Assembly: GCF_013409645.1 (NCBI RefSeq)
Contig: NZ_JACCBG010000001.1
Location: forward strand, 1-64,000
Origin: Nocardioides panaciterrulae
GTDB lineage: Bacteria > Actinomycetota > Actinomycetes > Propionibacteriales > Nocardioidaceae
Length of the DNA stretch: 64,000 nucleotides
Reading direction: 5' to 3'
Below the pieces are notes generated by a model. The model was given only the letters and a program-made list of their open reading frames with translations. It was not told the origin of the DNA and did not search any database. Shown piece after piece: positions 6,451 to 50,939 of the stretch. Position 1 is the stretch's first letter. Every line of letters begins with the position of its first letter. Made by a program: the position numbers and the translations under genes.

Positions 6451-6453
6451 GGT

Positions 6454-6675
6454 TCAGGCGTCGTCGCAGGCGCAGGCGCCGCTGACGGACTTCTCGGTGA
6501 AGCAGCGGGGGCAGATCTCGCGCGGCACCAGCTGCGGGCGGGGTTGGTCGCCGGCGCACTCGAAGTGCACGGCCCGGTGGTCCTCCATGACCGGGTCGTC
6601 GCCGACGTCGATCGGCTCGTGACAGGCCGGGCACCGGCCCGGGTAGCGGGCCTCGAACTTCCTCGGGGCGCTCAC
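6454..6675 (-). CDS. Zinc-ribbon phage protein
   Basis: 73 residues from GTG 6675 (GTGA overlap). Two Cys pairs, CPACHEPID and CPRCFTEKS, plus HFECAGD and a CACDDA end, form a clear zinc-ribbon layout. A near-constant first line (YPGRCPACHEPIDVGD) is typical of small actinophage proteins. It probably binds nucleic acid or protein; no specific role is known. Last gene of its block before the hairpin. Confidence 0.65.
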   Translation of the reverse strand: MSAPRKFEARYPGRCPACHEPIDVGDDPVMEDHRAVHFECAGDQPRPQLVPREICPRCFTEKSVSGACACDDA

Positions 6676-7154: not shown

Positions 7155-7296
7155 CGGTGGCCTCCCGGGTGTCGGTGACCTCGGTGAACCGGCGCTCCCA
7201 CCGCTCGAGCCATCGGACTGCGAGCACGTCGGCGATCACGTGGGCCACCGGGGCGGCGAGGATGATCGAGACGACGGCGATCTGCTGGGCGGTCAC
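7147..7296 (-). CDS. Small single-pass membrane protein
   Basis: 49 residues from GTG 7296 (GTGA overlap with the upstream stop): MTAQQIAVVSIILAAPVAHV followed by IADVLAVRWLERWERRFTEV. One hydrophobic helix at 5-26 and a basic amphipathic cytoplasmic tail. Its stop lies inside the start of the next gene. Small membrane proteins in early phage operons sometimes act in exclusion, but nothing here shows this. Confidence 0.6.
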   Translation of the reverse strand: MTAQQIAVVSIILAAPVAHVIADVLAVRWLERWERRFTEVTDTREATDA

Positions 7297-7529
7297 CGGG
7301 TGGCCTCCGTCCGCTCGTCGACGTCACGGACCTCGACCCACTCACCGTTGACGTAGACGCCGGGCACGACGGTCCTGTGGAGCGGACCCTTGCCGAACGT
7401 GGTGATCGCGGATGCGGCCGTCCGTCGCCGCGAGTAGCTCTCGGTCGTCCAGACGACCCGACCGTTGGCGGCGCGGAACCTGGCGTGCCATCCGGCGTCG
7501 GTGTGCACGATCTCGAATCGGTCGCTCAC
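7293..7529 (-). CDS. DUF1508 (YegP-like) domain protein
   Basis: 78 residues from GTG 7529. FEIVHTDAGWHARFRAANGR at 5-24 followed by VVWTTESYSRRRTAASAI is the DUF1508 pattern, a small alpha/beta fold found singly or duplicated in bacterial proteins such as YegP; its biochemical role is unknown. Here one copy is followed by a short basic tail. It is coupled by 4 bp on both sides. Confidence 0.7.
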   Translation of the reverse strand: MSDRFEIVHTDAGWHARFRAANGRVVWTTESYSRRRTAASAITTFGKGPLHRTVVPGVYVNGEWVEVRDVDERTEATR

Positions 7530-8020
7530 GAGCCGCCTCCGAGCGCAGTGCGGACGTCGTCGACGGCGAGGATCGGGGGCCCAGCGACGCTGCTGGCGAT
7601 CTGCTGAGCGAGGTCACAGACCCCGCGGATCCGGTCGCGAGCCGCGCGCAGCCGGGTCAGCTCCTCCCAGAGGGAGTCCCAGGTGGCGGCGAACGCCGGC
7701 TGCTCCTCGCGCAGGTGCGGGCAGACAACCGGCGCACGGCTGGGCAGGGCGTCGACCTTCGTGCCCTCAGGCATCCCGGCGATCGCGGACCACATGTCCT
7801 CGAGCACGTCGAGCATCCGCACGTCCTCGTCCTCGGCGAAGTCCTGGCCCCAGTCGTAGAGGAGGTCCTTCACGCGGTCGAGAGCGTCGGGGGCGCCGGC
7901 GAGGCGCCGGTCGATGATCTCGCCAACCACTCCCGGGAGTTCGGGGTAGGCGTCCTCGTTGCCGATCGGGCCGTAGAGCTCTCGGAGCTCCTGACCGGTG
8001 AGCGTCACGGCGCTACTCAT
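7526..8020 (-). CDS. Hypothetical acidic phage protein
   Basis: 164 residues; ATG 8020 chosen because GGGAGG lies 8 nt upstream. Acidic and helical (MSSAVTLTGQELRELYGPIG; LYDWGQDFAEDEDVRMLDVL; LWEELTRLRAARDRIRGVCD). No family recognised. Overlaps the upstream zinc-knuckle gene by 8 bp. Confidence 0.6.
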   Translation of the reverse strand: MSSAVTLTGQELRELYGPIGNEDAYPELPGVVGEIIDRRLAGAPDALDRVKDLLYDWGQDFAEDEDVRMLDVLEDMWSAIAGMPEGTKVDALPSRAPVVCPHLREEQPAFAATWDSLWEELTRLRAARDRIRGVCDLAQQIASSVAGPPILAVDDVRTALGGGS

Positions 8021-8183
8021 CGTCTGCACCTCCCGCGCAGGTCTTGTGGATCCAGCGGTCCTTGACCTTGGTGGCCTGCCGCCAGTCCTCGATGTCCCGC
8101 CCGCACCGGTGGCACTCGTTCTCCATCGACGACGACGCGAGCCCCGAACCGTGGTAGCTGGTCCGCGAGCGTTGGCGCGTCAC
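8013..8183 (-). CDS. Small zinc-finger-like phage protein
   Basis: 56 residues from GTG 8183 (GTGA overlap). NECHRCGRDIEDW and WIHKTCAGG give a C-x2-C ... H-x2-C set, enough for one zinc site. Probably a small nucleic-acid or protein-binding factor; no specific role can be assigned. Confidence 0.55.
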   Translation of the reverse strand: MTRQRSRTSYHGSGLASSSMENECHRCGRDIEDWRQATKVKDRWIHKTCAGGADDE

Positions 8184-8638
8184 GATCGGCCCTCCAGATT
8201 TGCCTTCGCGGCGGCTGCCGCTCGATTGGCGGCGGCCATGATCCGTGACGCCTCGCTCGCGTCGGTCGTGTCGATGAGGACGTTGACCCGCGACTGTCCG
8301 GACGAGTCGGCGCGGGCCCGGCCGTCGTGCCTCTCTGGGTCGCACAGCGAGAACACGACGTAGCCGTTGCCGACGAAGCCACGCTGGCTGCCCCGGGGCG
8401 GGGTGGATGCCATGACGTGGCCGACGCGGGCGGTGACCGTGCGGCCCGAGAACTTCGCACAGCGGTCGCCGTGGTCGCTCCCGGAGCAGTCGCAGGGGTC
8501 CTTGCGGTCCCACTCGGAGAGCGTGACCGTGTCGCCCTTCTGGTAGCCGCGGTCGTCGATGCGGACCTCGAACGTCTTGTCCCCGCGCCAGACCGCCTCG
8601 AAGAAGTTCGGCCAGGTCTTGAGCGTGTGGTGCGCCAT
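8180..8638 (-). CDS. DUF3850 / ASCH-superfamily protein
   Basis: 152 residues from ATG 8638 (TGATG overlap with recT). MAHHTLKTWPNFFEAVWRGD then KTFEVRIDDRGYQKGDTVTL and SEWD is the DUF3850 signature (H-x-LK-W, K-x-FE-R-x-DR, GD, EWD), a member of the ASCH/PUA-like RNA-binding fold. A Cys/His insert (DPCDCSGSDHGDRC at ~48-60) may bind metal. The C-terminal ~40 residues are Ala-rich and phage-specific. Confidence 0.8.
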   Translation of the reverse strand: MAHHTLKTWPNFFEAVWRGDKTFEVRIDDRGYQKGDTVTLSEWDRKDPCDCSGSDHGDRCAKFSGRTVTARVGHVMASTPPRGSQRGFVGNGYVVFSLCDPERHDGRARADSSGQSRVNVLIDTTDASEASRIMAAANRAAAAAKANLEGRS

Positions 8639-9561
8639 CAGCTCTCCACCTTCTGCTGCTCGGCGACCTCGGCGGCCAGGGCGTCGTTCACTGCCTGGGC
8701 CTCGTCGCTGGAGAGGTCCTCGCGGCGCTCGACCTGCCGGCCGATGACGTCCGCGACGTAGGCGAGGGCCATGTCCTTGCCGTCCACGCCGGCCTGCTTC
8801 ATCAGCTGGCCCATCGTGGAGATCTGCGCCTTCGTGATCTGGGTCGGCGCCGGGTCGTCCTTGGGCTGCTCGAGTGCAGCCGCGAGGCCCTTGCTCGGCG
8901 CGCTGGGCCGCCTGACCGTGACGACCTCGGCGTCGATGTACTCCATCTCGCGCTCTTCGACGGAGTAGACGCCGTTGAGCACGTCGGGGGCGATCGTTCG
9001 GCAGATCTCGGCGGTCGCCTTGGCCCGGAGCATCGTCTCGGGGTCGGTGAGGTACTTCTCGTTGCCGAGCATCTTGCCGTTCTTGTTCACGGCGTACTTG
9101 CCGGTGCTCTCGTCGATGACGGGGACGTATCCGGCCTTGGTGGCCCGCTCGATGGTCCACTCGGCGGTCTCGACCGTGTTGCTGCCGCGTCGGCGGCCGC
9201 CCATGACGACCTTCTCGGGGCCTGCCTCGATGGTCCAGGTCTGGTGGCCCGCGGCCTTCACCAGAGCGTCCATGGAGCGGCCGTACAGCGCGGCGTTGCC
9301 GTGCACGACGTAGACGGCCTTGACGGCCTGCATGGGGTCGAGGCCGAGGGAGGAGCCGTAGAGGATGGCGGCCGCGGTCTCGTCCGTCTTGCCCTTGAAG
9401 TGGTCGGGGACCATCGAGGTGCGGCAGATGACTTCGGCCAGGGCGCGCGCGTCGGCCATGACGGCTGCGGCCTCGCGGATGAGGGCCGAACCGGCGACGC
9501 GGGTCTCGGTGCTGCCGGGCAGGAGGTCGGTCGGCTGCTGGTACTGCTGGATCTCGGTCAT
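8638..9561 (-). CDS. recT: RecT-like single-strand annealing protein
   Basis: 307 residues from ATG 9561 (ATGA overlap). The core (ALAEVICRTSMVPDHFKGK; ILYGSSLGLDPMQAVKAVYV; YGRSMDALVKAAGHQ; PETMLRAKATAEICRTIAPD) is the RecT pattern of actinophages. RecT proteins coat single strands and pair homologous DNA without ATP. It lies directly downstream of a PD-(D/E)XK exonuclease, the standard RecE/RecT pair, used for phage recombination and concatemer formation. The C-terminal ~80 residues are variable and charged. Confidence 0.85.
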   Translation of the reverse strand: MTEIQQYQQPTDLLPGSTETRVAGSALIREAAAVMADARALAEVICRTSMVPDHFKGKTDETAAAILYGSSLGLDPMQAVKAVYVVHGNAALYGRSMDALVKAAGHQTWTIEAGPEKVVMGGRRRGSNTVETAEWTIERATKAGYVPVIDESTGKYAVNKNGKMLGNEKYLTDPETMLRAKATAEICRTIAPDVLNGVYSVEEREMEYIDAEVVTVRRPSAPSKGLAAALEQPKDDPAPTQITKAQISTMGQLMKQAGVDGKDMALAYVADVIGRQVERREDLSSDEAQAVNDALAAEVAEQQKVES

Positions 9562-10604
9562 GCTGCTGTCCCTTCGGGGATGGTGTTGGCGATGAACTCG
9601 GCGGTGTCCGCCCAGCGGGGCGGGTGGATGGTCAGGAAGTCGTCGTCGCAGTACGCCGGCCACGTGCCGGTGTCGAGGCACCGGCGGTAGGTGGCCAGTG
9701 CCTTGCCGGCGAGCGCGGCACCGCGCTCGAGGAAGTCGCCCGAGAGCTCGGCGACGACGACGGGGTGCGGCTCTGTGGACTCGACGAACACGAGGGCGTA
9801 GGCGGCGATGTCGACGCCGAGCCCGGCGGCCACGTCGAGATACCAGGCCGCGGATAGGTCGTAGCCGTACTCGACGATGTGCTTCGGCAGGGCGGCCGGG
9901 TCCGACGTGCGGGACGTCTTGAGGTCGACCCCAATCCCGTCGTCGCCGAGCCGGTCCCACCTGCAGCGCCGGATGACGTCGTAAGCCGGGTCGCGCCAGA
10001 ACATCGACAACTCGGACCGGCCGGGGCTGGTGAGCAGCCGCGACGCCTTCGGGTGCGTGAAGACGGCGTCCGCCATCCGTTCCGCGGCGGCCAGCTGCTC
10101 GGGCTTGAGGACGACCTTGCCCTCGGCTTCGGCTTCGGCGATCGCGGCCTTGACGTCGTTGCGGTTCCGGTTCCCCTCGACGGCCACGAACCCGGGCCCG
10201 GTACCGAGGACCATCGAGTGCGCGACCGTCCCGAGGTCGAGCGCGGCCGAGGTCTGCGGGTGGGTGCGGGAGTGCAGGAAGTGGGCCGGCGACTTGAGGA
10301 TCTGCTTCATCCCTGAGGCGGAGACCGAGGTCGGGTCTGCGTGGTAGACGAGCTCGTCGAGGTCCTCGTAGACGCCCAGCCGCGTCTCGCCTGTACGACG
10401 CTCCTGACCTGCGGAAACGTCGTCCGTGAGCGTGGGCTGTACGTCGCGCTCCGGCGCGCGGTGGCAGTCGCACTCGCACACGGCCGGGTCGAACGCCGGG
10501 CCACGTAGGTAGTCGCCGGTGCACCGTGCGTGAGAGTCGGCCGGGTTGCTTGGGTTGCAGAAGCCCGTGATGCGCGGCCGACGGGTCGATGTCTTCCCGC
10601 TCAC
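9558..10604 (-). CDS. RecE-like PD-(D/E)XK exonuclease
   Basis: 348 residues from GTG 10604 (GTGA overlap). Residues 1-50 are a Cys-rich extension (C16, C28, CECDC 43-47). The nuclease starts near 79 (YEDLDELVYHADPTSVSASG), with LDLGTVAHS (His 129), SELS, RWDRLGDDGIGVDLKT carrying Asp 217, Asp 227 and Lys 229: the catalytic set of the RecE / exonuclease VIII group. The enzyme resects 5' strands and hands 3' tails to RecT, whose gene follows with a 4-bp overlap. Confidence 0.85.
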   Translation of the reverse strand: MSGKTSTRRPRITGFCNPSNPADSHARCTGDYLRGPAFDPAVCECDCHRAPERDVQPTLTDDVSAGQERRTGETRLGVYEDLDELVYHADPTSVSASGMKQILKSPAHFLHSRTHPQTSAALDLGTVAHSMVLGTGPGFVAVEGNRNRNDVKAAIAEAEAEGKVVLKPEQLAAAERMADAVFTHPKASRLLTSPGRSELSMFWRDPAYDVIRRCRWDRLGDDGIGVDLKTSRTSDPAALPKHIVEYGYDLSAAWYLDVAAGLGVDIAAYALVFVESTEPHPVVVAELSGDFLERGAALAGKALATYRRCLDTGTWPAYCDDDFLTIHPPRWADTAEFIANTIPEGTAA

Positions 10605-10849
10605 GCGACACCACCGGGTGTGGCTGGGGCGCGGAAGGTTAGTGGGCACTGGTCCTTCAGCCCCGCGTACATCACCTCGAGCGCCGCGCCCCGGCCATGC
10701 CCGGCGCGGAGCTCGCGGAGGGCGAGCCTGATCGTGCTGGCCCTGACCGTTTCGGCGTCGACCACGGTCGAGGAGAACCGGCCGGCCTCGACCTGGCACT
10801 GCAGCGGGGCGGTCGCCGCGACCGTGGTCGCCCCGGTCGCGGCACTCAT
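10601..10849 (-). CDS. Hypothetical small phage protein
   Basis: 82 residues from ATG 10849, overlapping a small membrane-protein gene upstream and the RecE-like gene downstream (4 bp each). MSAATGATTVAATAPLQCQV, then VRASTIRLALRELRAGHGRG, helical. No family recognised; its place upstream of the nuclease suggests co-expression with recombination functions only. Confidence 0.5.
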   Translation of the reverse strand: MSAATGATTVAATAPLQCQVEAGRFSSTVVDAETVRASTIRLALRELRAGHGRGAALEVMYAGLKDQCPLTFRAPATPGGVA

Positions 10850-10938
10850 GCCGACCCCAGGGCAGCGGCGGCCAGGAGGAGCGCCGCGACGGCGGCGATC
10901 GGGAGGAGGTGCCACAGGGCGATCAGGAAGTCGGTCAC
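10846..10938 (-). CDS. Very small hydrophobic protein
   Basis: 30 residues from GTG 10938: MTDFLIALWHLLPIAAVAAL then LLAAAALGSA, one membrane helix and nothing else. GTGA overlap upstream and ATGA-type overlap downstream argue it is translated as part of the coupled chain. Function unknown. Confidence 0.45.
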   Translation of the reverse strand: MTDFLIALWHLLPIAAVAALLLAAAALGSA

Positions 10939-11123
10939 GACCGCACCTCCAGGGGTCCGCGCGCGGTGAGCTCGGCCCACGTGCAGCAGTCGATCTGGCC
11001 GCGGCTCGCGAACCAGCAGCCGCGGCCGCTCATGGCCCACTCGACGCCGTGCGCGTCGATCACGCGCGCGGCCATGTCGGTCGGCTCCTCGGGGTGCTCG
11101 GCTCCTAGGCCAGTGGTGTTCAT
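10935..11123 (-). CDS. Hypothetical small phage protein
   Basis: 62 residues from ATG 11123 with GAGGA 6 nt upstream. MNTTGLGAEHPEEPTDMAAR, then RGCWFASRGQIDCCTWAELT; four Cys/Trp-rich positions suggest a compact metal- or disulfide-containing fold. First gene of the middle block, immediately after the hairpin at 11155-11196. Confidence 0.5.
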   Translation of the reverse strand: MNTTGLGAEHPEEPTDMAARVIDAHGVEWAMSGRGCWFASRGQIDCCTWAELTARGPLEVRS

Positions 11124-11154
11124 CGGTTCCTCGCATTCGGGAGGCTGGGAAACG

Positions 11155-11196
11155 CGAAGGCCGGCCACCGCTGGGGGATGCGGTGACCGGCCTTCG
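11155..11196 (-). terminator. Long hairpin downstream of DUF2303 gene
   Basis: Near-perfect inverted repeat: CGAAGGCCGG-C-CACCGC (11155-11171) pairs with GCGGTG-A-CCGGCCTTCG (to 11196), 16 pairs with one bulged position and an 8-nt loop. It lies between the stop at 11262 and the next start at 11123, the only real gap between the first and second early blocks. Probably a terminator or attenuator. Confidence 0.65.
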
Positions 11197-11261
11197 CCGG
11201 GGGTGGCGGTGCTCCGGCTAGGTAGCCGGCACCGCGCTCTATGGGGTGGAGCTGATGGTCC

Positions 11262-12104
11262 TCAGCGGGAGCCGAGGAAGACCGGGGAGTTGATGAGCTC
11301 GAGCTCGGTGATGCCGGTCTCGACCTTCTGGACGACGGACAGGAACGCCTCGCGGAGGACGTCCTCGGGCCGGTCGAGCTTGTAGCCGATCCGCAGCGCA
11401 CCGTCGGCGAGCCGGTACCGGAGCCGCGCGGTGACCTTGAAAGCGTCGGCGCCCTCGAACGGGCGGAGGCCGAGGACGAACGTCTCGGGGATCTCCATCC
11501 GGCCGGCCTTGCCTGCCTTCGCGTCGACGGTCTCGCGGTACTCGAACTGCCGCTGCCCGTCGGAGAGCCGCTTGGACGACTCGACGTTGACGCCGATCGT
11601 GGCCTTGAAGGTCTGCGCGATCTCCAGCATGTCGGCCCCGGAGGGAGTGACGACGTCGGTGGCGCGCTCCTCGATCAGCTCGGCGAACACCTGCTGGTCG
11701 GGGAGGTGTCCGTCGTACTTGGCCCAGGTCTTCCACGCCTCGGTGAGCAGCACGCCGTAGATGACGCGGTGCTCCTCGTGGCGAGGGCCGTCGACCGTGG
11801 TGTTCGCGTCGAGGACGCCGGTGATCTTCGCGGCGACCGCGTCGGCCCACACCTCGGTGTCGGCGTCGGCGTGCTTGGCGAGGTAGGCGACGAAGCTCTC
11901 GGCGTCGTGCACCCGGTACTCGCCGGTCTTCCGACGCGGCTTGTGGGCGTACTCCGCCTTCTCGCGTTCGGCCTCCAGGTCGATGAGCCTGACCGTGCCG
12001 TCCGGGGAGACGACGGTGAAGAACCTGCCAACGAGCTCGGCGGGCTGGGTGGCGCGGGTGGCCGCGTCGATGACGGCCTGGGCGTTGCTGTTGTCGGTGG
12101 TCAC
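11262..12104 (-). CDS. DUF2303 (YfdQ-like) phage protein
   Basis: 280 residues from GTG 12104. The N-terminus (AQAVIDAATRATQPAELV), AESFVAYLAKHADADTEVWAD in the middle and RPFEGADAFKVTARLRYRL towards the end fit DUF2303, the family of E. coli prophage protein YfdQ, common in siphovirus early regions. Function unknown. It closes the first early block before the hairpin at 11155-11196 and is coupled by 4 bp to the gene above. Confidence 0.75.
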   Translation of the reverse strand: MTTDNSNAQAVIDAATRATQPAELVGRFFTVVSPDGTVRLIDLEAEREKAEYAHKPRRKTGEYRVHDAESFVAYLAKHADADTEVWADAVAAKITGVLDANTTVDGPRHEEHRVIYGVLLTEAWKTWAKYDGHLPDQQVFAELIEERATDVVTPSGADMLEIAQTFKATIGVNVESSKRLSDGQRQFEYRETVDAKAGKAGRMEIPETFVLGLRPFEGADAFKVTARLRYRLADGALRIGYKLDRPEDVLREAFLSVVQKVETGITELELINSPVFLGSR

Positions 12105-12490
12105 GCCTGGATCTCCTTGAGCTCGTCGGTCTGGGTGTCGACGACCTGCCCGTCCCCGACCTCGCGGAGCGACTCGAACGCGAGCTGGTTCGGGTCGTTG
12201 CGGGTGAGGTTGCCGGTCTTGTCGGTGTAGAAGAGGCTCGCCTTGCGGTCGTGCTCGGGGAGCTTCAGCTTGATCTGGTCGTCGATGACGAGGACGTCCT
12301 TGTCGCCCTTCATCGGGCCGACCGAGATCGTGTACTGCACGGACCCCTTCTTGCCGGTGTCGCGCACGCGCTGCACCAGGTCGAAGAGGGCCTCGGAGAG
12401 CTCGTCGTGCGACTTGCCCCCGGCCTGCTCGCGAAGCCAGTCCGCGAAGGGGCGGACGACCTGGTCGTCGTCCGCGCTGGTGTCGGTCAT
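12101..12490 (-). CDS. Hypothetical phage protein
   Basis: 129 residues from ATG 12490 (ATGA overlap). DDDQVVRPFADWLREQAGGK, a helix DELSEALFDLVQRVRDTGKK, then a beta-rich part GSVQYTISVGPMKGDKDVLV and VIDDQIKLKLPEHDRK. It looks like an accessory partner of the DUF2303 protein, with which it is translationally coupled, but no family is recognised. Confidence 0.6.
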   Translation of the reverse strand: MTDTSADDDQVVRPFADWLREQAGGKSHDELSEALFDLVQRVRDTGKKGSVQYTISVGPMKGDKDVLVIDDQIKLKLPEHDRKASLFYTDKTGNLTRNDPNQLAFESLREVGDGQVVDTQTDELKEIQA

Positions 12491-12849
12491 TCGTTTCCTT
12501 CCGTGTCTGCCCACCCGCGCCAGCGGCGGAGCGGGACCTTCTTGTTGCCGTTGCCCCGCGAGTGCTCGGCGTTGATGGGGTCGAGGCGGCTGGTCTTGTC
12601 GAGGAACCCGTCCGGGCCGCAGGCGGGCGCCCACTTCGCCGAGAAGCTCTGCGGGTTGATCTCCCCGAACCGGGCGTGGAGCAGCGCGGAGACCCGGGAC
12701 GGGTGGACCCAGCCGTCGTGCGCCTCGGCGTCTGTGCGGCACGCGGCGCGGAAGTCGTCCATGCGCACGTGCCCGAGCGGGGTGACCGTGTCGGCGAGCA
12801 GCATCAGCAGGTCCGGTTCGTCGAGCGGGCCGATGCCGACGGCGGTCAC
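12487..12849 (-). CDS. Hypothetical phage protein
   Basis: 120 residues from GTG 12849 (GTGA overlap). DEPDLLMLLADTVTPLGHVR, HDGWVHPSRVSALLHARFGE and a basic tail NKKVPLRRWRGWADTEGNE. Repeated aromatic-His-Pro segments suggest a DNA-binding winged-helix, but this is a guess. Ribosome coupling on both sides. Confidence 0.55.
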   Translation of the reverse strand: MTAVGIGPLDEPDLLMLLADTVTPLGHVRMDDFRAACRTDAEAHDGWVHPSRVSALLHARFGEINPQSFSAKWAPACGPDGFLDKTSRLDPINAEHSRGNGNKKVPLRRWRGWADTEGNE

Positions 12850-13328
12850 TTCCGGCCGCCCGGGATCTCGCGCATGAGCCGCTCGATCCCGCGGTCGTAG
12901 TCCTCGTCCCCGTCCTCCCACGGCAAGCGCCGCGCCGGGCGCCGAACAGAAGCGGCCGGCCCCGATGGGACCGGCCGCTCGCTGGCTCGTGACTCTTCAC
13001 TGCTGGCGCGTTCTCGCTCGCGGACCGCGGCCTGCCGCTGGGCCTGCTGGAGGGCGAAGTCGCGGCGCTCGGGCTTCGGCTTCCCCTTGCCCTTCCGCTT
13101 CCCGGGCACCCTCTGCCCCAGGAGGCGGGCGACGTCGCGGCGGGCGGCCTGCACGCTGAAGTGGGTCGGGGTCTCCGGCAGCTTGTACTGACCGGAGGCC
13201 TTCGGGTGCGACCAGATCGTGTGCCCGGAGGAGTCGACCGACTCGTACACCCAGCCGTTGGTCCGCAGCCACTTAGCGAATGCCCGGATCTCGGCGCGCG
13301 CGTGGCGCGGCTGACCCGCGCCGCTCAC
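12846..13328 (-). CDS. Hypothetical phage protein with HicA/dsRBD-like N-terminus
   Basis: 160 residues from GTG 13328. Residues ~12-72 (IRAFAKWLRTNGWVYESVDS then SGHTIWSHPKASGQYKLPET and AARRDVARLLGQ) recall the HicA-type double-stranded-RNA-binding fold: GW near the start, a GHTIW strand and a C-terminal helix. The rest is a Lys/Arg/Glu-rich tail (KRKGKGKPKPERRDFALQQA) and an acidic end. No HicB-like antitoxin lies next to it. The toxin relationship is a fold-level impression only. Confidence 0.5.
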   Translation of the reverse strand: MSGAGQPRHARAEIRAFAKWLRTNGWVYESVDSSGHTIWSHPKASGQYKLPETPTHFSVQAARRDVARLLGQRVPGKRKGKGKPKPERRDFALQQAQRQAAVRERERASSEESRASERPVPSGPAASVRRPARRLPWEDGDEDYDRGIERLMREIPGGRK

Positions 13329-13531
13329 CAGGTCTCCTCGGATCGCATCTCGCGCCGCGCCTGCATCCGTTCGCGACGGCGCGTCAGGCGCTTCACCTTC
13401 GCCCGGTTCCGGGAACGTCGGTAGCTCGTCATGACGCGGTACCACCGGGTGTGCACGTCCTGCTCGTCGGTGGTCTCGATCCGGCGCCGACCCATGCTCG
13501 CTGGGCGCGGGCTGCTGCCTCGATGGCTCAC
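13325..13531 (-). CDS. Small basic phage protein
   Basis: 68 residues from GTG 13531 (GTGA overlap). Very Arg-rich (RSRNRAKVKRLTRRRERMQA), likely nucleic-acid binding through charge. No family recognised. Confidence 0.5.
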   Translation of the reverse strand: MSHRGSSPRPASMGRRRIETTDEQDVHTRWYRVMTSYRRSRNRAKVKRLTRRRERMQARREMRSEETW

Positions 13532-13845
13532 GACGTCACCGCCCATCCGCCGCCCTCACCGACGCGCCAGCGGCGTCGCGACCTGGGCCGCTGGGAGGGC
13601 GCCTGGCGCATCAGCCAGTCGATGAACGTCAAGTCCGACCGGCCGGTGTCGTTGCCGATCCGCATGGCGTCGGCGACGTCGCGCTCGTAGGCGACGTACA
13701 GCGCGTGTGCCTGGGCACCCGTGACGCCGAGCTCTGCACGGAGGATGCGGAACGCGTCTCGCTTCGATGTGGGGGCGGTTCTCCCACCTGCCTGATAGCC
13801 CGGCAGCGGCTCCGCAACGTGGGCAGTACCCGGTGGTGCGATCAT
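13528..13845 (-). CDS. Hypothetical phage protein
   Basis: 105 residues from ATG 13845 (ATGA overlap). KRDAFRILRAELGVTGAQAH and ALYVAYERDVADAMRIGNDT are helical; SDLTFIDWLMRQAPSQRPRS leads into a basic tail. No family recognised. Between the excisionase-like gene and the Arg-rich protein. Confidence 0.5.
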   Translation of the reverse strand: MIAPPGTAHVAEPLPGYQAGGRTAPTSKRDAFRILRAELGVTGAQAHALYVAYERDVADAMRIGNDTGRSDLTFIDWLMRQAPSQRPRSRRRWRVGEGGGWAVTS

Positions 13846-14066
13846 GCGGCAGACCTCCGTCGCCGGCGCCGCGATACGGGCGCCTTCTCCTTGGGCTTCA
13901 TCGCTTCCCAGAGCGCACGCTTGTCGGCCTCGGTGAACCGCCAGCCGGCGCGGCCGCCGAGCTGGGCGCCGATGCCGTGTTCGCGGGCTACGTCGGCCAC
14001 CTTCTGGCGTCCGCAGCGGAACTCCTCGGCGACCTCGTAGACAGTGAAGACCTTCGCGTCGGTCAT
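13842..14066 (-). CDS. Excisionase-like / MerR-type helix-turn-helix protein
   Basis: 74 residues from ATG 14066. FTVYEVAEEFRCGRQKVADV at 7-26 is a MerR/Xis-type winged-helix start, then GAQLGGRAGWRFTEADKRAL, the wing (GWRFTEAD) and second helix. The Arg-rich tail would add DNA contacts. As second gene of the leftward early transcript it could be the excisionase that works with the integrase at 16314-17720, or another early regulator. Coupled to the Cro-like gene by 4 bp. Confidence 0.65.
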   Translation of the reverse strand: MTDAKVFTVYEVAEEFRCGRQKVADVAREHGIGAQLGGRAGWRFTEADKRALWEAMKPKEKAPVSRRRRRRSAA

Positions 14067-14272
14067 GCCGCGCTCGCGAGCCGATCGCCGATCGCGACCG
14101 CGACGAGCTGGACCCAGCCGGCGGTCGGGGTGACCCGGTTGTTCTCGGCGCGTGAGAGGTAGGAGGGGCTAACGCCGGCCGCCTCGGCAACCTGCTCGAG
14201 CGTCATGTCGGCGGCGAGCCGAAGGGCGCGCAAAGCGGGGCCGACCCCTCCGGTGCTGATGCTTTCCGTCAT
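14063..14272 (-). CDS. Cro-like XRE-family repressor
   Basis: 69 residues from ATG 14272. ALRALRLAADMTLEQVAEAA then GVSPSYLSRAENNRVTPTAG is a complete XRE helix-turn-helix. It is the first gene of the leftward transcript and diverges from the plus-strand repressor at 14385; the two share an intergenic region with two perfect inverted repeats. This is the classical Cro/CI layout. The start codon lies inside one operator arm and no good Shine-Dalgarno precedes it, so the mRNA may be leaderless. Confidence 0.75.
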   Translation of the reverse strand: MTESISTGGVGPALRALRLAADMTLEQVAEAAGVSPSYLSRAENNRVTPTAGWVQLVAVAIGDRLASAA

Positions 14273-14368
14273 GGGAAGAAACCTAATCTTTTCTTCCCAT
14301 CGGGGCAAGGGTGGTCATGCCTAACCTGGGCGATTCTTTCCCAGATACTTCACAAATGGGAAAGAATC
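14271..14368. promoter_or_regulatory. Paired operators of the phage immunity switch
   Basis: Two perfect inverted repeats with related half-sites lie in the divergent gap: ATGGGAAGAA (14271-14280) / TTCTTCCCAT (14291-14300), and GATTCTTTCCCA (14332-14343) / TGGGAAAGAATC (14357-14368). Shared half-site TGGGAARGAA. Positions at the start of each divergent gene fit operators for the repressor and Cro-like proteins. Confidence 0.8.
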
Positions 14369-14384
14369 AGGCACGCTTGACACT

Positions 14385-14825
14385 ATGGATGCACATGAGA
14401 GGCGGGCCTGGGGCCCGCTCATCCGTGAGGCGCGCAAGGCGCAGAAGATCGATCAGGAAGAGCTCGCGCAGATGGCGGGCACGACCCGCCGAACGATCGG
14501 ATCGATCGAGCGCGGAGACACGACGGCGCAGACCGACGTGCTCAAGCGGATCCTCACGGCGCTCGGGCTGACCCAGTCGCTCGAGCTCGACCCAGACGTC
14601 CGCAACTTCGTCGCCATGCTGGGGCCCCTGCTCCAGCGGCTGGCGACAGACGAGCGCGCCCGGCTAATGCCGGCGATTGTGGAGTTGGTGGCCGACGCGC
14701 TGCAGGGTGATGCCAGCGCCGAGCCGACCCCGATTCGCGCCCGGCGCCCGATGTTCTCCTTCGACGAAGCCGACCAGGCCGCCCGCGACGAAGACCGCGA
14801 GAAACCCCGCATGGGGGACGAGTGA
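14385..14825 (+). CDS. Phage immunity repressor, XRE family
   Basis: 146 residues from ATG 14385. IREARKAQKIDQEELAQMAG then TTRRTIGSIERGDTTAQTDV is an XRE helix-turn-helix at ~13-55; the middle is helical (LLQRLATDERARLMPAIVEL) and the end acidic. There is no LexA-like autocleavage domain; an ImmA-like peptidase gene follows with a 4-bp overlap, so induction may occur by proteolysis in trans, as in ICEBs1-like systems. Divergent from the Cro-like gene and next to its operators. Confidence 0.8.
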   Translation: MDAHERRAWGPLIREARKAQKIDQEELAQMAGTTRRTIGSIERGDTTAQTDVLKRILTALGLTQSLELDPDVRNFVAMLGPLLQRLATDERARLMPAIVELVADALQGDASAEPTPIRARRPMFSFDEADQAARDEDREKPRMGDE

Positions 14826-15277
14826 CCGCAGCTCTGTCGGAGCTGGCACCTATGGTCCCGCCCGTGCCACTTCCCCACCCCTGGCGCCAGCTCCGAGAGC
14901 TTGCGCACGTCACGCTCCAGTGGCATGAGGGCGGCAAGATGGGCCAGGTCGACCACGGCACCCAGACCGTGAGCCTTCGACTTGGCCTCACCTGGGAGGA
15001 GCGCCGATGCACGCTTCTGCACGAGCTTCTCCACCTGGACAACGGCCCCCAGCCGTTCGGGTTGAAGGCGAAGGAGGAAGAGACCGTCCGGCGCCAGACG
15101 GCGCGCGAGATGCTCCCGGACATCTGGCAGGTCGGTGAGGCCCTGGCCTGGGCGCACACACCAATGGAGGCCGCCGAGGAGCTCGGCGTGGACCTATACG
15201 TCCTGCGCAAGCGGCTGCGGCACCTGCACCCCAGCGAGCTGCACTACCTCGAGCGCCGGCTGGCGCAGGCGGAGTGA
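14822..15277 (+). CDS. ImmA/IrrE-type zinc metallopeptidase
   Basis: 151 residues from GTG 14822 (GTGA overlap). RRCTLLHELLHLDNG gives the HExxH zinc site (His 67, Glu 68, His 71), with glutamates at 86-88 as the likely third ligand. Family members cleave XRE repressors. The gene directly follows the immunity repressor, so that repressor is the obvious substrate (inference). The C-terminal part (MEAAEELGVDLYVLRKRLRH) resembles a helix-turn-helix. Confidence 0.85.
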   Translation: MTAALSELAPMVPPVPLPHPWRQLRELAHVTLQWHEGGKMGQVDHGTQTVSLRLGLTWEERRCTLLHELLHLDNGPQPFGLKAKEEETVRRQTAREMLPDIWQVGEALAWAHTPMEAAEELGVDLYVLRKRLRHLHPSELHYLERRLAQAE

Positions 15278-15474
15278 GTGCCCCGTGACCGGCGGGATTT
15301 CTGAGAAGCCGCGGCGCGCTGAACACGCCGAGGATGTGTACGCCCGAACAGGACCGCGCTAGATTCGGGATATAGCGGCTGTTGGAGAGGTCGCGGGGAT
15401 GCGCTTGGTCTGCTGCCAGACCCTTCCGGTTCGACCGGATGCAGCGCCCCCGGGCCCCTCGAGCAGTCGCTTCC
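15278..15474. other. Intergenic gap, nothing recognised
   Basis: Convergent gap between the ImmA-like gene and the DUF3800 gene. It is slightly more A/T-rich around 15361-15380. No coding frame, tRNA, clear hairpin or promoter is convincing. Confidence 0.5.
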
Positions 15475-16248
15475 TCATCTCCACGCCGCCTGGCGCCACC
15501 ACGGGATGGCGGCCAGGGTCGCCGGCCTTCCGAGCCACTTGAAGCCGTAGTTCACGCGCCGTCCGTTGACCGCGCGGATCTGGTGCGCCGTGCGTAGGAA
15601 GTGGTGCTCCTCGAAGCCGCCGAACTCGTCCGGTCGGAAGGCCAGCGCGAGCATGCCGGCGTACTGGTCTGCGGCTTGGAGCCCGAGGTAGTTCGCCTGG
15701 CCGTCGAAGTGCAGGCTGTGCATCAGGTGCCACGGCACCCAGTGCGGGTTGTTGCTACGACGGCGGTGGTCGATGTAGTCCGCCGTGGTGTCGTGTTTGA
15801 AGCCGCGAACGTGGCCGAAGCGGACGAGCGCATCGCGGGTTCCTCCGGGCCAGTCCCGGGCGGCAAGCAGTACCCGCTCCATCACCATGCCGGCAGCGAA
15901 GTTGTAGAAGAGGGCGTGATCGTTCCTCATTCCGGCCTGCTGCGGGATCCCGGCCTTCTCGACGGCGACGTGCACCACCATCGCAGGCGTCAGCGCGCCG
16001 AGGAGGGACGCGACGCGCTGTCGGCGCGGGAAGGTCTTCACGTGCTCGTTCCAGTGGAGCGCCTTGCCTGCGGGGATGCCGAAGTCCTGGCGTAGATCGC
16101 GGACGGCCTGCATCAGGTGGGCCTCGTCCTCGTCCGCCACCAGCACGGCAGAGAAGGCGAAGAACGGGGAGGCCTTCGGGCCAACTCCCCGATCGCCGGT
16201 CTCGTCGATGTAGACGCGGAGCAGCCGGCGTCCAGTGGTAGCGGTCAC
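15475..16248 (-). CDS. DUF3800 domain protein (RNase H-like), prophage cargo
   Basis: 257 residues from GTG 16248. The first strand LRVYIDETGDRG carries the D-E-x-G-D motif; later LHWNEHVKTF, and near the end YLGLQAADQYAGMLALAF, the Asp-containing motif that closes the DUF3800 active site. The family has an RNase H-like fold and occurs in phages and mobile elements; some members are linked to defence. Standing alone between the lysogeny genes and integrase, where prophages carry genes useful to the lysogen, it may act in superinfection exclusion (inference). Confidence 0.75.
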   Translation of the reverse strand: MTATTGRRLLRVYIDETGDRGVGPKASPFFAFSAVLVADEDEAHLMQAVRDLRQDFGIPAGKALHWNEHVKTFPRRQRVASLLGALTPAMVVHVAVEKAGIPQQAGMRNDHALFYNFAAGMVMERVLLAARDWPGGTRDALVRFGHVRGFKHDTTADYIDHRRRSNNPHWVPWHLMHSLHFDGQANYLGLQAADQYAGMLALAFRPDEFGGFEEHHFLRTAHQIRAVNGRRVNYGFKWLGRPATLAAIPWWRQAAWR

Positions 16249-16313
16249 GGCCAGAACCTTACGGTCGGGCTCCCCCGGCAGCGCGCAGGCCGGCGTGGCC
16301 TGTGGAGAACCGA

Positions 16314-17720
16314 TCAGGCAGCGTCGATGGCCGCTGGCCCGAGCTGCAGACCACGGTGCTCGGCCTCGTCGGCAAGCGCGGCCGCGAGCTGGCGCAGCGC
16401 GTCATCGGGTAGTGACTGGACCCGCGGGAGCCATGAACCGGTCGAGGTCCGGCCGGCGAACGCCTGGGACGCAGCGTCCGCGGCGAGCAGCTGGGCGTCG
16501 GGGAGCAGGTGCGAGTAGGTGTCGACGGTCGTCTGGATCGACTCGTGGCCAAGGCGGGCCTGGACGACGTGGATCGGCGTGCCGGCGGCGAGCAGCCAGG
16601 ACGCGTGGGTGTGGCGGAGGTCGTGGATCCGTGGGGCCTGGGCGAGCGTGCCCGTGCACCCGCACGGCGCCGGCGGGGTCTTGTGGAGCTTGCACCGCTG
16701 CGGCTCGCCGGTCCCGCACCGGCAGGCCGCCGGGGTGTGGGTCGGGCAGTGCTGGGCGCGCCAGAGCGCGGGGCGCCAGTTCTTCGACCAGAAGGTGCGG
16801 TGGACGATCATCCCGCCGCGGGGCGCGGTGAAGACGAGGTCGCGGCCGGCCTTGCCGTCGAGCAGCGGCCGGAGGTCCTCGACGACCTCGGCCGGTAGTA
16901 CGACGGTGCGGCGGCCCTTCTTCGTCTTGGGCGGCCCGATGACGCGCTGGCCGTCGCTGGACCACTTGAGTGCGCGGCGGATCTTCACGGTGCGTGCGCC
17001 GAGGTCGACGTCGCCGCGGCGGAGGACGACGGCCTCGCCCCAGCGGCAGCCGGTCCCGACCAGGAAGCGGAGGAAGGGGCGGTAGTGCGGGTGGAAGGTG
17101 TCGTAGAGCGCGTCCCACTCCGCGTGGGTCATGCAGACCATCTCGGCGTCGTCTTCGTCGTCCTCGGAGTCGACGGCGACGCGCCGGCCCTCCGGCAGGC
17201 GGACGCCCTTGGCCGGGTTGCGGTTGAGGTGGCCGAGCTCGATGCAGCGGGTGACGACGGCCGAGAGCAGGCCGCGCTGGTTCTCGAGGCTCTTCGTCGA
17301 GTAGGCCTCGCCGGTCGCGCCCTTGCCGGCGGCGAGGTCGTTCACGGCCTGGCGGACGACGTCGGCGGTGAGCTGGTCGGCGCGCGTAGTGCCGATCAGG
17401 TGGCCCCAGCTCCGGGACCAGAGGCGCTCGTAGCCGAGGCGGGTTCCTTCCTCGATGCCGGTGAGCAGCCGGATGTGGTCGGCGGCGATCTCGTCCAGCG
17501 TCGGGATGCCCTTCTCCTGCTCGCCCTCGTAGAGCTTGTCGAGCGCGCCTTGCGGGCCGAGCGCGTCGAGCCACTTCGAGAAGGTCTCTGCGTCGCTCTT
17601 CTTCGTGAACGACTCGGAGGTCTGCAGCGGCTTCCCGGTCTTCGGGCTGGTGCCGTGCCGGAACCGGACCCGGTAGGTGGTCGTTCCGTCGCTGTTGGTG
17701 AGGGTCTCGACCTTGCGCAT
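16314..17720 (-). CDS. int: Tyrosine site-specific integrase
   Basis: 468 residues from ATG 17720 (GGAG upstream). The N-terminal arm-binding domain covers ~1-65, the core-binding SAM-like domain ~73-165, the catalytic domain ~195-410: Arg 226 (GTGCRWGEA), Lys in PKTKKGRR (264-268), His 366/Arg 369 (IHDLRHTH), His 392 and Tyr 402 (DTYSH). Unusually, ~35 residues rich in Cys and His (C325, C333, C335, C343, C353, C355; H324, H328, H346) are inserted just before HDLRH. It should catalyse integration into the adjacent tRNA-Leu. Confidence 0.93.
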   Translation of the reverse strand: MRKVETLTNSDGTTTYRVRFRHGTSPKTGKPLQTSESFTKKSDAETFSKWLDALGPQGALDKLYEGEQEKGIPTLDEIAADHIRLLTGIEEGTRLGYERLWSRSWGHLIGTTRADQLTADVVRQAVNDLAAGKGATGEAYSTKSLENQRGLLSAVVTRCIELGHLNRNPAKGVRLPEGRRVAVDSEDDEDDAEMVCMTHAEWDALYDTFHPHYRPFLRFLVGTGCRWGEAVVLRRGDVDLGARTVKIRRALKWSSDGQRVIGPPKTKKGRRTVVLPAEVVEDLRPLLDGKAGRDLVFTAPRGGMIVHRTFWSKNWRPALWRAQHCPTHTPAACRCGTGEPQRCKLHKTPPAPCGCTGTLAQAPRIHDLRHTHASWLLAAGTPIHVVQARLGHESIQTTVDTYSHLLPDAQLLAADAASQAFAGRTSTGSWLPRVQSLPDDALRQLAAALADEAEHRGLQLGPAAIDAA

Positions 17721-17803
17721 CGGTGTCTCCTGTCGTCGTGGCCGGACGCTAGTCGCGGGCACCGACAGGGGGCGGTGTGTACGGGAGTGCATTTAGGCGA
17801 AAT

Positions 17804-28049: not shown

Positions 28050-28517
28050 GTGTCCAAGCCGAAGGCCAAGCAGCCGGACTACCTCAACTCGACCCGCGGA
28101 CCCGTGGTGTCCGCACGCTTCGTGGCCGTCCTGGTCCTGGTGGTCCTCGGCATCGCGTGGATGGCCTACTACTACGCCGCGGTGCGGGTCGACCCCACCG
28201 CGGTCCCCGCGCCGAAGCCGGGCAGCCCCTCCTGGATGGCCGACCTGGGTGACTGGAACTACCTGATCGGCTTCGGGCTGCTCTTCCTCGGCCTGGTGCT
28301 CGCCGCGCACCCGAGCACGCCGCTGGGCCGGGGCAGCGGGGTCGTGGTGGGCATGCTCGGCTGCTTCGTGCTCGGGCTGCTGTGGATCTGCACGTTCTAC
28401 GTGATCAGCAACGACATCAGCGCGCTGCCGGTCTTCGACGACCTGGGCCAGCGGAACCTGCTGGTCGGCATCGGCTTCATGGCCGTCGGCTTCGTCTACG
28501 CCACCCGGTGGGAGTGA
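28050..28517 (+). CDS. crgA: CrgA-type cell division protein, internally duplicated
   Basis: 155 residues from GTG 28050 (GAGGAG 7 nt upstream). Classical CrgA is ~90 residues with two membrane helices and a WN-containing loop. Here the first half (VLVLVVLGIAWMAYYYAAVR; WMADLGDWNYLIGFGLLFLG) matches one CrgA unit, and the second (VGMLGCFVLGLLWICTFYVI; LGQRNLLVGIGFMAVGFVYA then TRWE) repeats the pattern, giving four helices. CrgA recruits FtsI/FtsZ partners to the septum. Confidence 0.8.
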   Translation: MSKPKAKQPDYLNSTRGPVVSARFVAVLVLVVLGIAWMAYYYAAVRVDPTAVPAPKPGSPSWMADLGDWNYLIGFGLLFLGLVLAAHPSTPLGRGSGVVVGMLGCFVLGLLWICTFYVISNDISALPVFDDLGQRNLLVGIGFMAVGFVYATRWE

Positions 28518-28586: not shown

Positions 28587-28771
28587 TTGTCCACGACATG
28601 TGGACGACCGCGGGCCTCATCCACAGCGGCGGCGGCCGGGGCCCGACCTTGTCCACAGGCTGCCACCTGGAACCGCCGGACCGTTCGTCAGAATGGTCCG
28701 GCGGTTTTGCACATTGTGGATAACTCCTGTGGAGAACTACATCGATGTGATTCTCCACAGACGTCTCCACA
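28587..28771. other. DnaA-box cluster downstream of crgA
   Basis: Eight DnaA-box-like 9-mers in 185 bp. Plus strand: 28587-28595 (TTGTCCACG), 28617-28625 (TCATCCACA), 28649-28657 (TTGTCCACA), 28751-28759 (TTCTCCACA), 28763-28771 (GTCTCCACA). Minus strand: 28599-28607 (TCGTCCACA), 28715-28723 (TTATCCACA, perfect), 28728-28736 (TTCTCCACA). Orientation is mixed. The density exceeds that in the dnaA-dnaN gap. Confidence 0.8.
28671..28708 (+). terminator. Rho-independent-type terminator after crgA
   Basis: AACCGCCGGACCGTTC (28671-28686) pairs with GAATGGTCCGGCGGTT (28691-28706), a 16-bp stem (one G-T) with loop GTCA, followed by TT. It lies ~150 bp after the crgA stop, in the middle of the DnaA-box cluster. 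Confidence 0.75.
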
Positions 28772-28979
28772 GTTGTGCATCAACCCTCCCGAGGATGGCG
28801 GAGCACCGACGCCATGAGAAGGACGCTTCCCCCAGATCGGGTATGCGGAAACGGCAGGTGACCGTCTGGTCTGGTCCGGTCCGGTCCTCCGGGGGACGGC
28901 GGCCGGCTGGCGGGACGGCGGCTGGCGGGGGCGGCGGCTGGCCGTGGGCCCGGGGCGCGCGTGGGTGGGCGCGAGCGGA
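28772..28979. other. Intergenic, nothing recognised
   Basis: GC-rich filler between the DnaA-box cluster and the long palindrome. It contains short GGCGGC/GGCTGG repeats around 28900-28945 but no convincing gene, promoter or hairpin. Confidence 0.5.
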
Positions 28980-29029
28980 GGGTGCCTCCGCGGTTTGAAC
29001 ATACATTTGTTCAAACCGCGGAGGCACCC
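28980..29029. terminator. Perfect 21-bp inverted repeat, likely bidirectional terminator
   Basis: GGGTGCCTCCGCGGTTTGAA-C (28980-29000) is perfectly complementary to 29009-29029, with an A/T-rich 8-nt loop ATACATTT. It sits 41 bp after the stop of the rhomboid gene on the minus strand, in the convergent gap with crgA. The lack of a T-tract and the unusual perfection leave other roles open. Confidence 0.6.
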
Positions 29030-29069
29030 CCTGCGCAGCCTCGGCCCCCGAGTCGCCGCCGGAGCCGGC

Positions 29070-29987
29070 TCAGCCCAGGACCGCGGTCCGGGCGAGGACC
29101 GCGACGACCAGCCCCACGCCGACCGCACCGAGTCCGGCGGTCTGCCACAGCACCCGGCGCGGGCGCGGGGACCAGGCCAGGATCGCGGCGATCAGGGCGC
29201 CGCCGAGGAAGCCGCCGAGATGCCCCTGCCAGGAGATGTTGGGCGAGGTGACGGTGATGACGAAGTTGATGCCGATCCACAGGAGGATCTGCTGAGGATT
29301 CGCGCGCACCTTGATCGCGAGCACCAGCAGGGCGCCCATCAGGCCGAAGATGGCCCCCGAGGCGCCGAGCGTGGCGCCGTGCGGGGGTGAGAACCAGTAG
29401 GCCATGGTGGAGCCGGCCAGCGCGGAGAGCAGGTAGAGCGCGAGGAACCGCGCGCGCCCGATGGCCATCTCGAGCTGGGGGCCGAGGAACCACAGGGCCA
29501 GCATGTTGAAGCCGATGTGCCAGATCTCGACGTGCGTGAACGCACTGGTGAGCAGCTGCCACCAGGCGCCGTCGCTGACGCCCGGGTACCAGTGGCCGTC
29601 CCCCGGCGGGTTGGTCCCCAGCGCACACGCCTGCTGGGAGAAGAGCGGGTAGGCGCGGCTGGGGTAGGCGTTCGAGCCGCACACGCCGGTCGGCAGCAGC
29701 ATCAGCCGGTTGAGCAGGGTGCTGGCCGCACCCCCGGTCGCCAGCACCAGCAGCCACACCGCGGCGTTGATCGCGATCAGCACCATCGAGGTCAGGCCGG
29801 GGTTGCCCGGCCGGAGCCCGCCGTACGCCGTGCGCCCGCTGCGCGTGGTCCGGGCGCCCTCGTCGATGCACTGCGGGCACTGGAAGCCCACCGCGGCGTC
29901 GCGCATGCAGTCCGGGCAGATCGGCCGGCCGCAGCGCTGGCAGGTGACGTAGGTCTCGCGACCGGGGTGCCGGTAGCAGGTGGGCAC
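29070..29987 (-). CDS. Rhomboid family intramembrane serine protease
   Basis: 305 residues from GTG 29987. The N-terminus is a B-box-like zinc finger (CYRHPGRETYVTCQRCGRPI, then CPDCM and FQCPQC), followed by six or seven membrane helices. Rhomboid motifs: HIGFNMLALWFLG (His/Asn), LGASGAIFG (catalytic Ser), and WQGHLGGFLGG (catalytic His). It cleaves membrane proteins within the bilayer; substrates are unknown. The gene is close to ppiA, as in other actinobacteria. Confidence 0.92.
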   Translation of the reverse strand: MPTCYRHPGRETYVTCQRCGRPICPDCMRDAAVGFQCPQCIDEGARTTRSGRTAYGGLRPGNPGLTSMVLIAINAAVWLLVLATGGAASTLLNRLMLLPTGVCGSNAYPSRAYPLFSQQACALGTNPPGDGHWYPGVSDGAWWQLLTSAFTHVEIWHIGFNMLALWFLGPQLEMAIGRARFLALYLLSALAGSTMAYWFSPPHGATLGASGAIFGLMGALLVLAIKVRANPQQILLWIGINFVITVTSPNISWQGHLGGFLGGALIAAILAWSPRPRRVLWQTAGLGAVGVGLVVAVLARTAVLG

Positions 29988-48879: not shown

Positions 48880-49496
48880 AGTGGGTGTTCCTTCGGTTCG
48901 TGGAATCACAACGGTGCACGTTGTGGCTGCGAGGTCTGGGGTGTGCATCCTGCCATGCGCCGCGAGGGCGCGGGAGGTTCGGTGGGGATTCCCCCGAGGA
49001 GGGCCCGGGGCAGGGCCCGGCGGGGGCCGCTGGTGGTGGGTCCTCGTGGGTCCTGACGGGGGTTGCCCGAGGGGGTGGACCTAGGAGGTTGTCCCCAGGC
49101 AGGGGGCGGAGTGGATGTTCACCGGGATTCGATCCAGTTGACGGTCCGTGGGAGTCACAGCAACCGTGGAAACTGTGGATAACTCCCGTCCGCGCAGGTC
49201 AGCGTGGCGAGTCGGGTGCACAGGGGGTGTGGAGCAGCCTCGGGAGGAGTCACAAGAAATGTGCAGTCGGGTCCGGCGCCGGGCGACGCCCACCGGGTTG
49301 TCCACAGGCCGTCCCGGGATCGGTGGCCGCCGACCACAGGCGCTCCACAGGCCGGGTGCCTGTGATTCGAGGCCTGCCGAGCAGGCCGGAATCGTTGTGA
49401 GGGAACGATTCTGGGACCCCGCCGGTGGCGGCGAGTGCGGTGCGGGCGCCGGCCGCGGGGTCCAGATCGTCGCTGGGAGAACGATTCCGGGGGGTC
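48880..49496. other. oriC candidate, dnaA-dnaN gap
   Basis: 617-bp non-coding gap. DnaA boxes: 49174-49182 (TTATCCACA on minus, perfect) and 49298-49306 (TTGTCCACA); weaker 49228-49236, 49340-49348 and 49089-49097. Near the dnaA stop there is GAATCGTT (49389-49396) / AACGATTC (49404-49411), and a third AACGATTC about 70 bp further on (~49480). No long AT-rich unwinding element is obvious. The position is the standard actinobacterial oriC. Confidence 0.75.
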
Positions 49497-50939
49497 TCAG
49501 CCCTGGCGGGCCTGCATCTTGACCCGGTTCGTCAGCTCGCTGACCTGGTTGAAAACGGCCCGCCGCTCGGCGAGCAGCTGGTTGATCTTGCGGTCGGCGT
49601 ACATGACGGTGGTGTGGTCGCGGTTGCCGAACTGCGCGCCGATCTTCGGCAGCGAGAGGTCGGTGAGCTCGCGGCACAGGTACATCGCGATCTGACGGGC
49701 CATCACGAGGTGCCGGCCGCGGCTGGGGCCGGTGAGCTCCTCGATCGACAGCCCGAAGTACGCCGCGGTCTGGGCGATGATCAGCGCCGCGGTGATCTCC
49801 GGCTCGCCACCCTCGGGGATCAGGTCCTTGAGCACGATCTCGGCCAGGGTCATGTCGACCTCCTGGCGGTTGAGGTTGGCGAACGCCGTCACCCGGATCA
49901 GCGCACCCTCGAGCTCGCGGATGTTGGTCTGGATCTTGGAGGCGATGAACTCCAGCACGTCCGGCGGCGCGGTGAGCCGGTCCATGGCGGCCTTCTTGCG
50001 CAGGATGGCGATGCGGGTCTCCAGGTCGGGCGGCTGGACGTCGGTGATCAGCCCCCACTCGAACCGGTTGCGCAGCCGGTCCTCGAGCGCCTCGAGGCGC
50101 TTCGGCGCCCGGTCGGAGGTCAGCACGATCTGCTTGTTGGCGTTGTGCAGGGTGTTGAAGGTGTGGAAGAACTCCTCCTGGGTCTGGGTCTTGCCCTCCA
50201 GGAACTGGATGTCGTCGATCAGCAGCACGTCCACGTCGCGGTAGCGCCGCTTGAACCGGTCCTGCCGGTCGTCGCGGATCGCGTTGATGAACTCGTTGGT
50301 GAACTCCTCGCTGGAGACGTAGCGCACCTTCGCCCCGCTGTAGAGGCTGCGCACGTAGTGACCGATCGCGTGCAGCAGGTGCGTCTTGCCCAGCCCGGAG
50401 TCGCCGTAGACCAGCAGCGGGTTGTAGGCCTTCCCCGGCGCCTCGGCGACCGCGACCGCGGCGGCGTGCGGGAACCGGTTCGAGGAGCCGATCACGAAGG
50501 TCTCGAAGGTGTACTTGGGGTTGAGCCTGGTCTCCAGGGCGGTCGCCGGCCTGGTCTCACCCACGGCCGGGACGGGCGCCGGGACCGGCGCCGGCATCGC
50601 CGGCGAGGCATTCATCGACAAGTCGTCATGTCGACTTCTCGGGGTCTCGGTGGCCGGGGCGTGGTCCTCGGTGGTGACCACCCGCTCCTCGAGCTGAGGG
50701 TTCACGGTGACCGCGATCCGGATCTCCCGGCCGAAGGCGACCGTGAGCGCGTCCTCGAGCTGGCCGCGTAGCCGGCCCTCGAGCTGGGTGCGGGTGAAGT
50801 CGTTGGGCACCGCGATGATCGCGGTGCTCTCGTGCAGCGTCACCGGCTCGCTGGCCCGCAGCCAGGCCCGCTGGTTGGGCTGGAGGTCCGCGACGACCCC
50901 GCGCCAGGCCGTGCCGAGATCCGAGGTGCTCTGCTCCAC
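49497..50939 (-). CDS. dnaA: Chromosomal replication initiator DnaA
   Basis: 480 residues from GTG 50939. Domain I ~1-85; a Pro/Ala-rich domain II; domain III AAA+ with [39 protein letters not shown] (Walker A), [14 protein letters not shown] (Walker B); domain IV helix-turn-helix [20 protein letters not shown] and [13 protein letters not shown] that reads DnaA boxes. It opens oriC and, through the boxes upstream, probably controls its own gene. Confidence 0.97.

Follow-up and report, generated by a model that had tools for sequence, protein, structure and literature searches.

A compact group of DnaA boxes arranged around a palindrome, at positions 28705-28782 of the window (the whole stretch of DNA analysed, 64,000 nucleotides from Nocardioides panaciterrulae), is a candidate autonomous DnaA-control element. 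Judging from its sequence and its distribution, we put at roughly 60% the probability that it acts on the DnaA pool in the manner of datA and DARS or of the Streptomyces box clusters. The broader reading, in which it would be a class-wide, autonomous actinobacterial DnaA-control element with its own architecture and partner protein, and a counterpart of datA/DARS, falls a little short of even odds.

A DnaA-box cluster and the module within it

The gap between crgA and a gene for a rhomboid-family protease contains eight DnaA-box-like 9-mers on both strands (28587-28771). Seven of them differ from TTRTCCACA by at most one mismatch, with starts within 185 bp, and the remaining one (28763+) has two mismatches. 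Boxes with at most one mismatch number 337 in the single 4.27-Mb contig of the genome, so that 185 bp should hold 0.015 by chance. In 5,000 runs of a Markov model of the gap, the mean was 0.12 boxes and the maximum 2, and the whole gap had 8. The first-pass annotation had reported the eight 9-mers within 185 bp in both orientations, which was confirmed, and had named a similar density elsewhere in the genome as grounds for doubt; the six distant 20-kb stretches sampled contained only 0-2 boxes each (at most one mismatch), so that no comparable density was found. Its statement that the cluster is denser than the dnaA-dnaN gap was also borne out, since that gap (48949-49496) carries three boxes. 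The features are as follows.

28050-28517, + strand: crgA (cell division protein CrgA); the best matches are the NCBIfam CrgA models, with scores below their cut-offs
28587-28657: four DnaA-box-like 9-mers of the cluster first reported (28587+, 28599-, 28617+ and 28649+, the last an exact TTGTCCACA), outside the conserved module
28670-28707, + strand: hairpin of 17 bp with a short T tail; RNA fold of -38.2 kcal/mol with flanks, z of -6.6
28705-28713, + strand: box X, TTTTGCACA, weak; 23 bp from 28728, in a position that matches the corresponding box of relatives
28715-28723, - strand: box Y, TTATCCACA, exact, by sequence
28728-28736, - strand: box Z, TTCTCCACA; match to model R1 at 28703-28749 (-) with 31.4 bits and E of 3e-8, the same sequence being among those from which R1 was built
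28735-28752, no strand: palindrome AACTACATCGATGTGATT, the dyad centre; the consensus elsewhere is AAYTACACNNGTGTARTT
28751-28759, + strand: box Z', TTCTCCACA; 23 bp from 28728; match to model R1 at 28739-28780 (+) with 23.5 bits
28763-28771, + strand: box Y', GTCTCCACA, by sequence
28774-28782, - strand: box X', TGATGCACA, weak; 23 bp from 28751, in the position of the outer box of relatives
29070-29987, - strand: rhomboid-family protease gene, by NCBIfam rhomboid matches
48949-49496: dnaN-dnaA gap, the presumed oriC, with boxes at 49089+, 49174- and 49298+; dnaA and dnaN by NCBIfam

The conserved part is the 3' half of the cluster, a module (28705-28782) with three 9-mers on each side of the palindrome. 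The boxes starting at 28705, 28728, 28751 and 28774 are spaced exactly 23 bp apart, and their directions alternate. In its basic form, the module consists of the palindrome, a box pointing away from it, a middle box in either direction and a box in the reverse direction at 23 bp. The outer pair is convergent, the middle box lies 1-4 bp from its neighbours, and the palindrome (AAYTACACNNGTGTARTT in consensus) abuts the boxes. In this genome, the basic element is doubled around the palindrome, and the sequence TACANNNNTGTR has a single occurrence in the 64-kb window, namely this palindrome. The two weak boxes (28705+ and 28774-), the palindrome and the 23-bp phasing had been missed by the first-pass annotation. 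The boxes at 28587-28657 that it had included form no recognisable conserved grouping in relatives. The strong hairpin that it had placed in the middle of the cluster is real, but it is terminator-like, follows crgA and lies outside the conserved module. It is likely the end of the crgA transcript; it did not pass a strict terminator scan, which required a longer T run.

The crgA and rhomboid genes are convergent, with the same gene order in relatives, and the module is therefore downstream of both. No promoter-like match was found at the module between the two gene ends. Homologues of crgA were present in 144 of 150 genomes of the family. The dnaA gene (49497-50939, - strand), together with dnaN, recF, gyrB and gyrA, spans 39-51 kb, with yidC, jag, parA and parB on the opposite flank of dnaA, and the distance from the module to the presumed oriC is 20 kb. 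GC skew across the 64-kb window did not locate the origin at that scale.

Other features of the region were also recorded. An inverted repeat at 28975-29035, nearly perfect and with arms about 22 bp long (GGGTGCCTCCGCGGTTTGAAC...), folds at -54 kcal/mol; it lies just past the 3' end of the rhomboid gene and is probably either the end of the rhomboid transcript or a protein site. Rfam returned no match to the module, and only spurious miRNA-type matches, to this inverted repeat (28964-29043). Positions 1-17792 of the window are a probable integrated element with a tyrosine recombinase-type integrase (16314-17792), a DNA cytosine methylase, DUF2303 and DUF3800, adjoining the FHA-domain, pstP, ftsW-rodA, pbpA and pknB genes. 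At the start of parA, the stretch 54695-54810 holds four further DnaA-box-like sites, one exact, followed by a perfect parS-type palindrome, GTTTCACGTGAAAC (54797-54810). Five more are found 38 kb from dnaA on the opposite side (G000:C1:87050-87273, in L093) and two at 89.4 kb (G000:C1:89379-89432, in L093), both groups without the palindrome.

Conservation of the arrangement among relatives

Conservation of the cluster after crgA was a check set by the first-pass annotation, and the outcome did not go against it. A convergent box pair 22-24 bp apart was found within 400 nt after crgA in 80 of 90 genomes of the family and in 35 of 60 genomes of other families, where most genomes without the pair retained boxes after crgA. 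As controls, the reversed sequence gave 0, and the stretch 600-1000 nt downstream gave 3 of 89 for the family and 1 of 60 for other families. A group that appears to be Streptomyces-like (family f22) had four to five boxes after crgA without a clear palindrome. No boxes were found after crgA in family f40, in one genome of family f29 (G410) or in five of the six f2 genomes inspected.

A search for the palindrome joined to the first box (TACANNNNTGTARTTNTCCNCA), allowing up to one mismatch, was positive in 187 of the 246 order-level genomes and in 98 of the 297 class-level genomes, counts that include nrdR sites. The reversed pattern as a control gave almost no matches, and the motif was rare in the remaining phylum. 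A scan of named genomes with the exact motif listed 80 loci, comprising 57 in the crgA-rhomboid gap, 9 at nrdR and 14 assigned to neither; essentially all were actinobacterial (one was labelled Acidobacteria), including Nocardioides, Kribbella, Cellulomonas, Microbacteriaceae, Jiangella, Bifidobacterium and others. For the third box, module sequences were retrieved by the palindrome and first box only, with the later boxes not in the pattern. A third, reverse box was present at +20 to +26 in 248 of 258 such sequences, versus 4 to 27 of 258 in control windows. The outer spacing was exactly 23 in 193 sequences, and 189 of these 193 had a middle box with at least 6/8 matches. Model R1, built from the module, gave matches at E <0.1 in 75 of 80 genomes, some of them weak or nrdR sites, and no match in the other 5.

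The module away from crgA and the origin

The distance between crgA and dnaA was less than 100 kb in 55 of 61 genomes. Outside family f2, the nearness of the module to dnaA follows from crgA or rhomboid synteny and is thus not independent evidence. In f2, which is probably the Propionibacteriaceae as judged by similarity to the named loci L195 and L210, the whole module was found at unrelated loci 20 kb to 1.6 Mb from dnaA. Its neighbours there, according to genes called by a simple script, were YibE/F and DUF5997, MlrC and PanC, a helicase and an FtsX permease, acetate kinase, or an MFS transporter. Five f2 genomes (loci L386, L394, L365, L366 and L367) had two copies of the module, separated by 100-2200 bp. 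In genome G242, the module was positioned near the terminus, which speaks against a strict origin-dosage model.

Three genomes of the genus g19 (G048, G019 and G125) carried the module next to the rhomboid gene, at a distance of about 46-48 kb from dnaA. In two of them (G048 and G019), crgA was 123-128 kb from dnaA, separate from the module, and was not followed by boxes. Six genomes of this genus (G037, G089, G129, G133, G135 and G144) had additional matches resembling the module in the interval from crgA to dnaA. Because the module is kept at unrelated f2 loci and, in g19 genomes, away from crgA, it is the element that is conserved and not its place. It does not stay with crgA in these cases, nor is it fixed to the dnaA-dnaN region, being separated from it by 20 kb here and by as much as about 1.6 Mb in f2. 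It therefore qualifies neither as a regulator of crgA nor as a component of oriC.

Possible function and comparison with known systems

As a DnaA-control element, the module could work as follows. DnaA would bind the stronger boxes and then fill the weak neighbours through contacts over the 1-4 bp gaps, a second, dimeric protein on the palindrome would help or time DnaA assembly, and the resulting complex would alter the amount or the nucleotide state of free DnaA. We favour a datA-like action, in which active DnaA would be lowered soon after the site is copied, with DARS-like reactivation as a second choice. Since it would act in trans on the DnaA pool, the site could be moved without loss.

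DnaA-box clusters of Streptomyces coelicolor, namely H69, H24 and D78, were reportedly described by Smulczyk-Krawczyszyn et al. in 2006 in J Bacteriol. Streptomyces clusters have been cited as datA-like, and those of Streptomyces and Bacillus restrain initiation (PMC5742627). Like the Streptomyces clusters, the boxes described here are several, grouped outside the dnaA-dnaN gap yet near oriC, and in an actinobacterial host; in the Streptomyces-like f22 genomes, in contrast, no fixed three-box arrangement with the palindrome was found.

The core of E. coli DARS, which acts at a distance, has three DnaA boxes whose spacing is fixed, two of them in tandem and one in the opposite direction (PMC5742627). 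The module resembles DARS1 and DARS2 in having three phased boxes, with box I opposed to II and III. However, any triple with convergent outer boxes gives the DARS orientation, so this match is weak evidence. The DARS gaps are 5 and 3 bp, with outer starts 26 bp apart (NC_000913), whereas those of the module are usually 1-3 and 3-4 bp, with outer starts 23 bp apart and a palindrome in addition. A search of the E. coli DARS1 and DARS2 regions with model R1 gave no match. Given the different gaps and the lack of an R1 match, the module is not a DARS member. In E. coli datA, which lowers active DnaA, the DnaA boxes also lie in a gap downstream of genes (PMC5742627), but datA needs an IHF site, and the boxes of the module are accompanied by the palindrome instead. 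E. coli DnaA prefers cooperative box pairs 2-3 bp apart (PMC11317965). These double boxes are closely spaced as in the module and are bound as a pair, but they are tandem pairs, unlike the three boxes of the module, of which the outer two converge.

The first-pass annotation had proposed a DnaA-titrating or regulatory site. The regulatory half of that proposal is supported by the class-wide fixed box arrangement and its persistence at unrelated loci. Plain titration, in which the cluster would bind up DnaA by the number of boxes near the origin and their arrangement would be unimportant, is unlikely. Exact boxes are indeed enriched near oriC in this genome (9 of the 21 exact TTRTCCACA sites lie in the first 90 kb), and E. 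coli boxes likewise accumulate near the origin (PMC12371093). However, the module has only three boxes, commonly TTCTCCACA and TTGTCCCCA and not the consensus, their fixed spacing and the palindrome are kept, and in f2 the module can be far from the origin.

The palindrome also occurs in other settings. In nrdR promoters, two NrdR boxes 31 bp apart flank it at equal distance, and a single DnaA box overlaps the second of them; L091 (G000:C1:3520347-3520442) is an nrdR promoter with a TACACCGGTGTA palindrome in that arrangement, and similar ones are found in relatives. In family f6 (L157 and L158), a similar palindrome with a DnaA box lies about 220 nt upstream of dnaA, and in the Microbacteriaceae-type contigs L181, L202, L203, L209 and L224, the palindrome and DnaA box are preceded by TAGATGAAGTG. 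The palindrome was rejected as an NrdR box: CTA and TAG are separated by 4 nt in the NrdR core, CTACATCTAG, but by 8 nt in the palindrome, and the two stand side by side at nrdR. It was also rejected as a hairpin RNA or terminator; only 61 of 257 sequences have a box abutting it on both sides, and a T tail is lacking. The presence of the palindrome with one box in nrdR promoters means that it may belong to another regulon, and the nrdR and dnaA occurrences together suggest either that a second factor serves both replication control and the supply of nucleotides or that the DnaA site is longer. These occurrences are also what would be expected if the site were not primarily one for DnaA but for a dimeric transcription factor that binds the palindrome together with its flanks, with the DnaA-like 9-mers as part of the operator. 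We consider this quite improbable, since, at the crgA and f2 loci, the second and third boxes fit the DnaA consensus whichever way the middle one points, since only 7 of 55 nrdR and other loci have the third box, and since the site is located between the ends of genes, where no promoter-like match was found.

Control of the 3' end of crgA or the rhomboid gene, or antisense control of either, is very improbable: DnaA is a known transcription factor and the module follows crgA in most genomes, but both genes end here, and the module occurs in f2 without either gene and in g19 without crgA. The functional part of a dispersed origin suggested by the first-pass annotation, or a second origin, is barely credible despite the dense DnaA boxes 20 kb from dnaA, because the distance to dnaA reaches about 1.6 Mb in relatives and boxes are retained within the dnaA-dnaN gap itself.

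Box clusters outside oriC are already known from Streptomyces. In a search of open-access papers, we found no description of the module, the palindrome, the link to crgA or the relocation. To our knowledge, little is understood of the means by which actinobacteria, including Mycobacterium, Corynebacterium and Streptomyces, restrict replication to one round per cycle. An element such as this candidate, being short, defined, conserved and relocatable, would provide a direct handle on the control of replication in actinobacteria.
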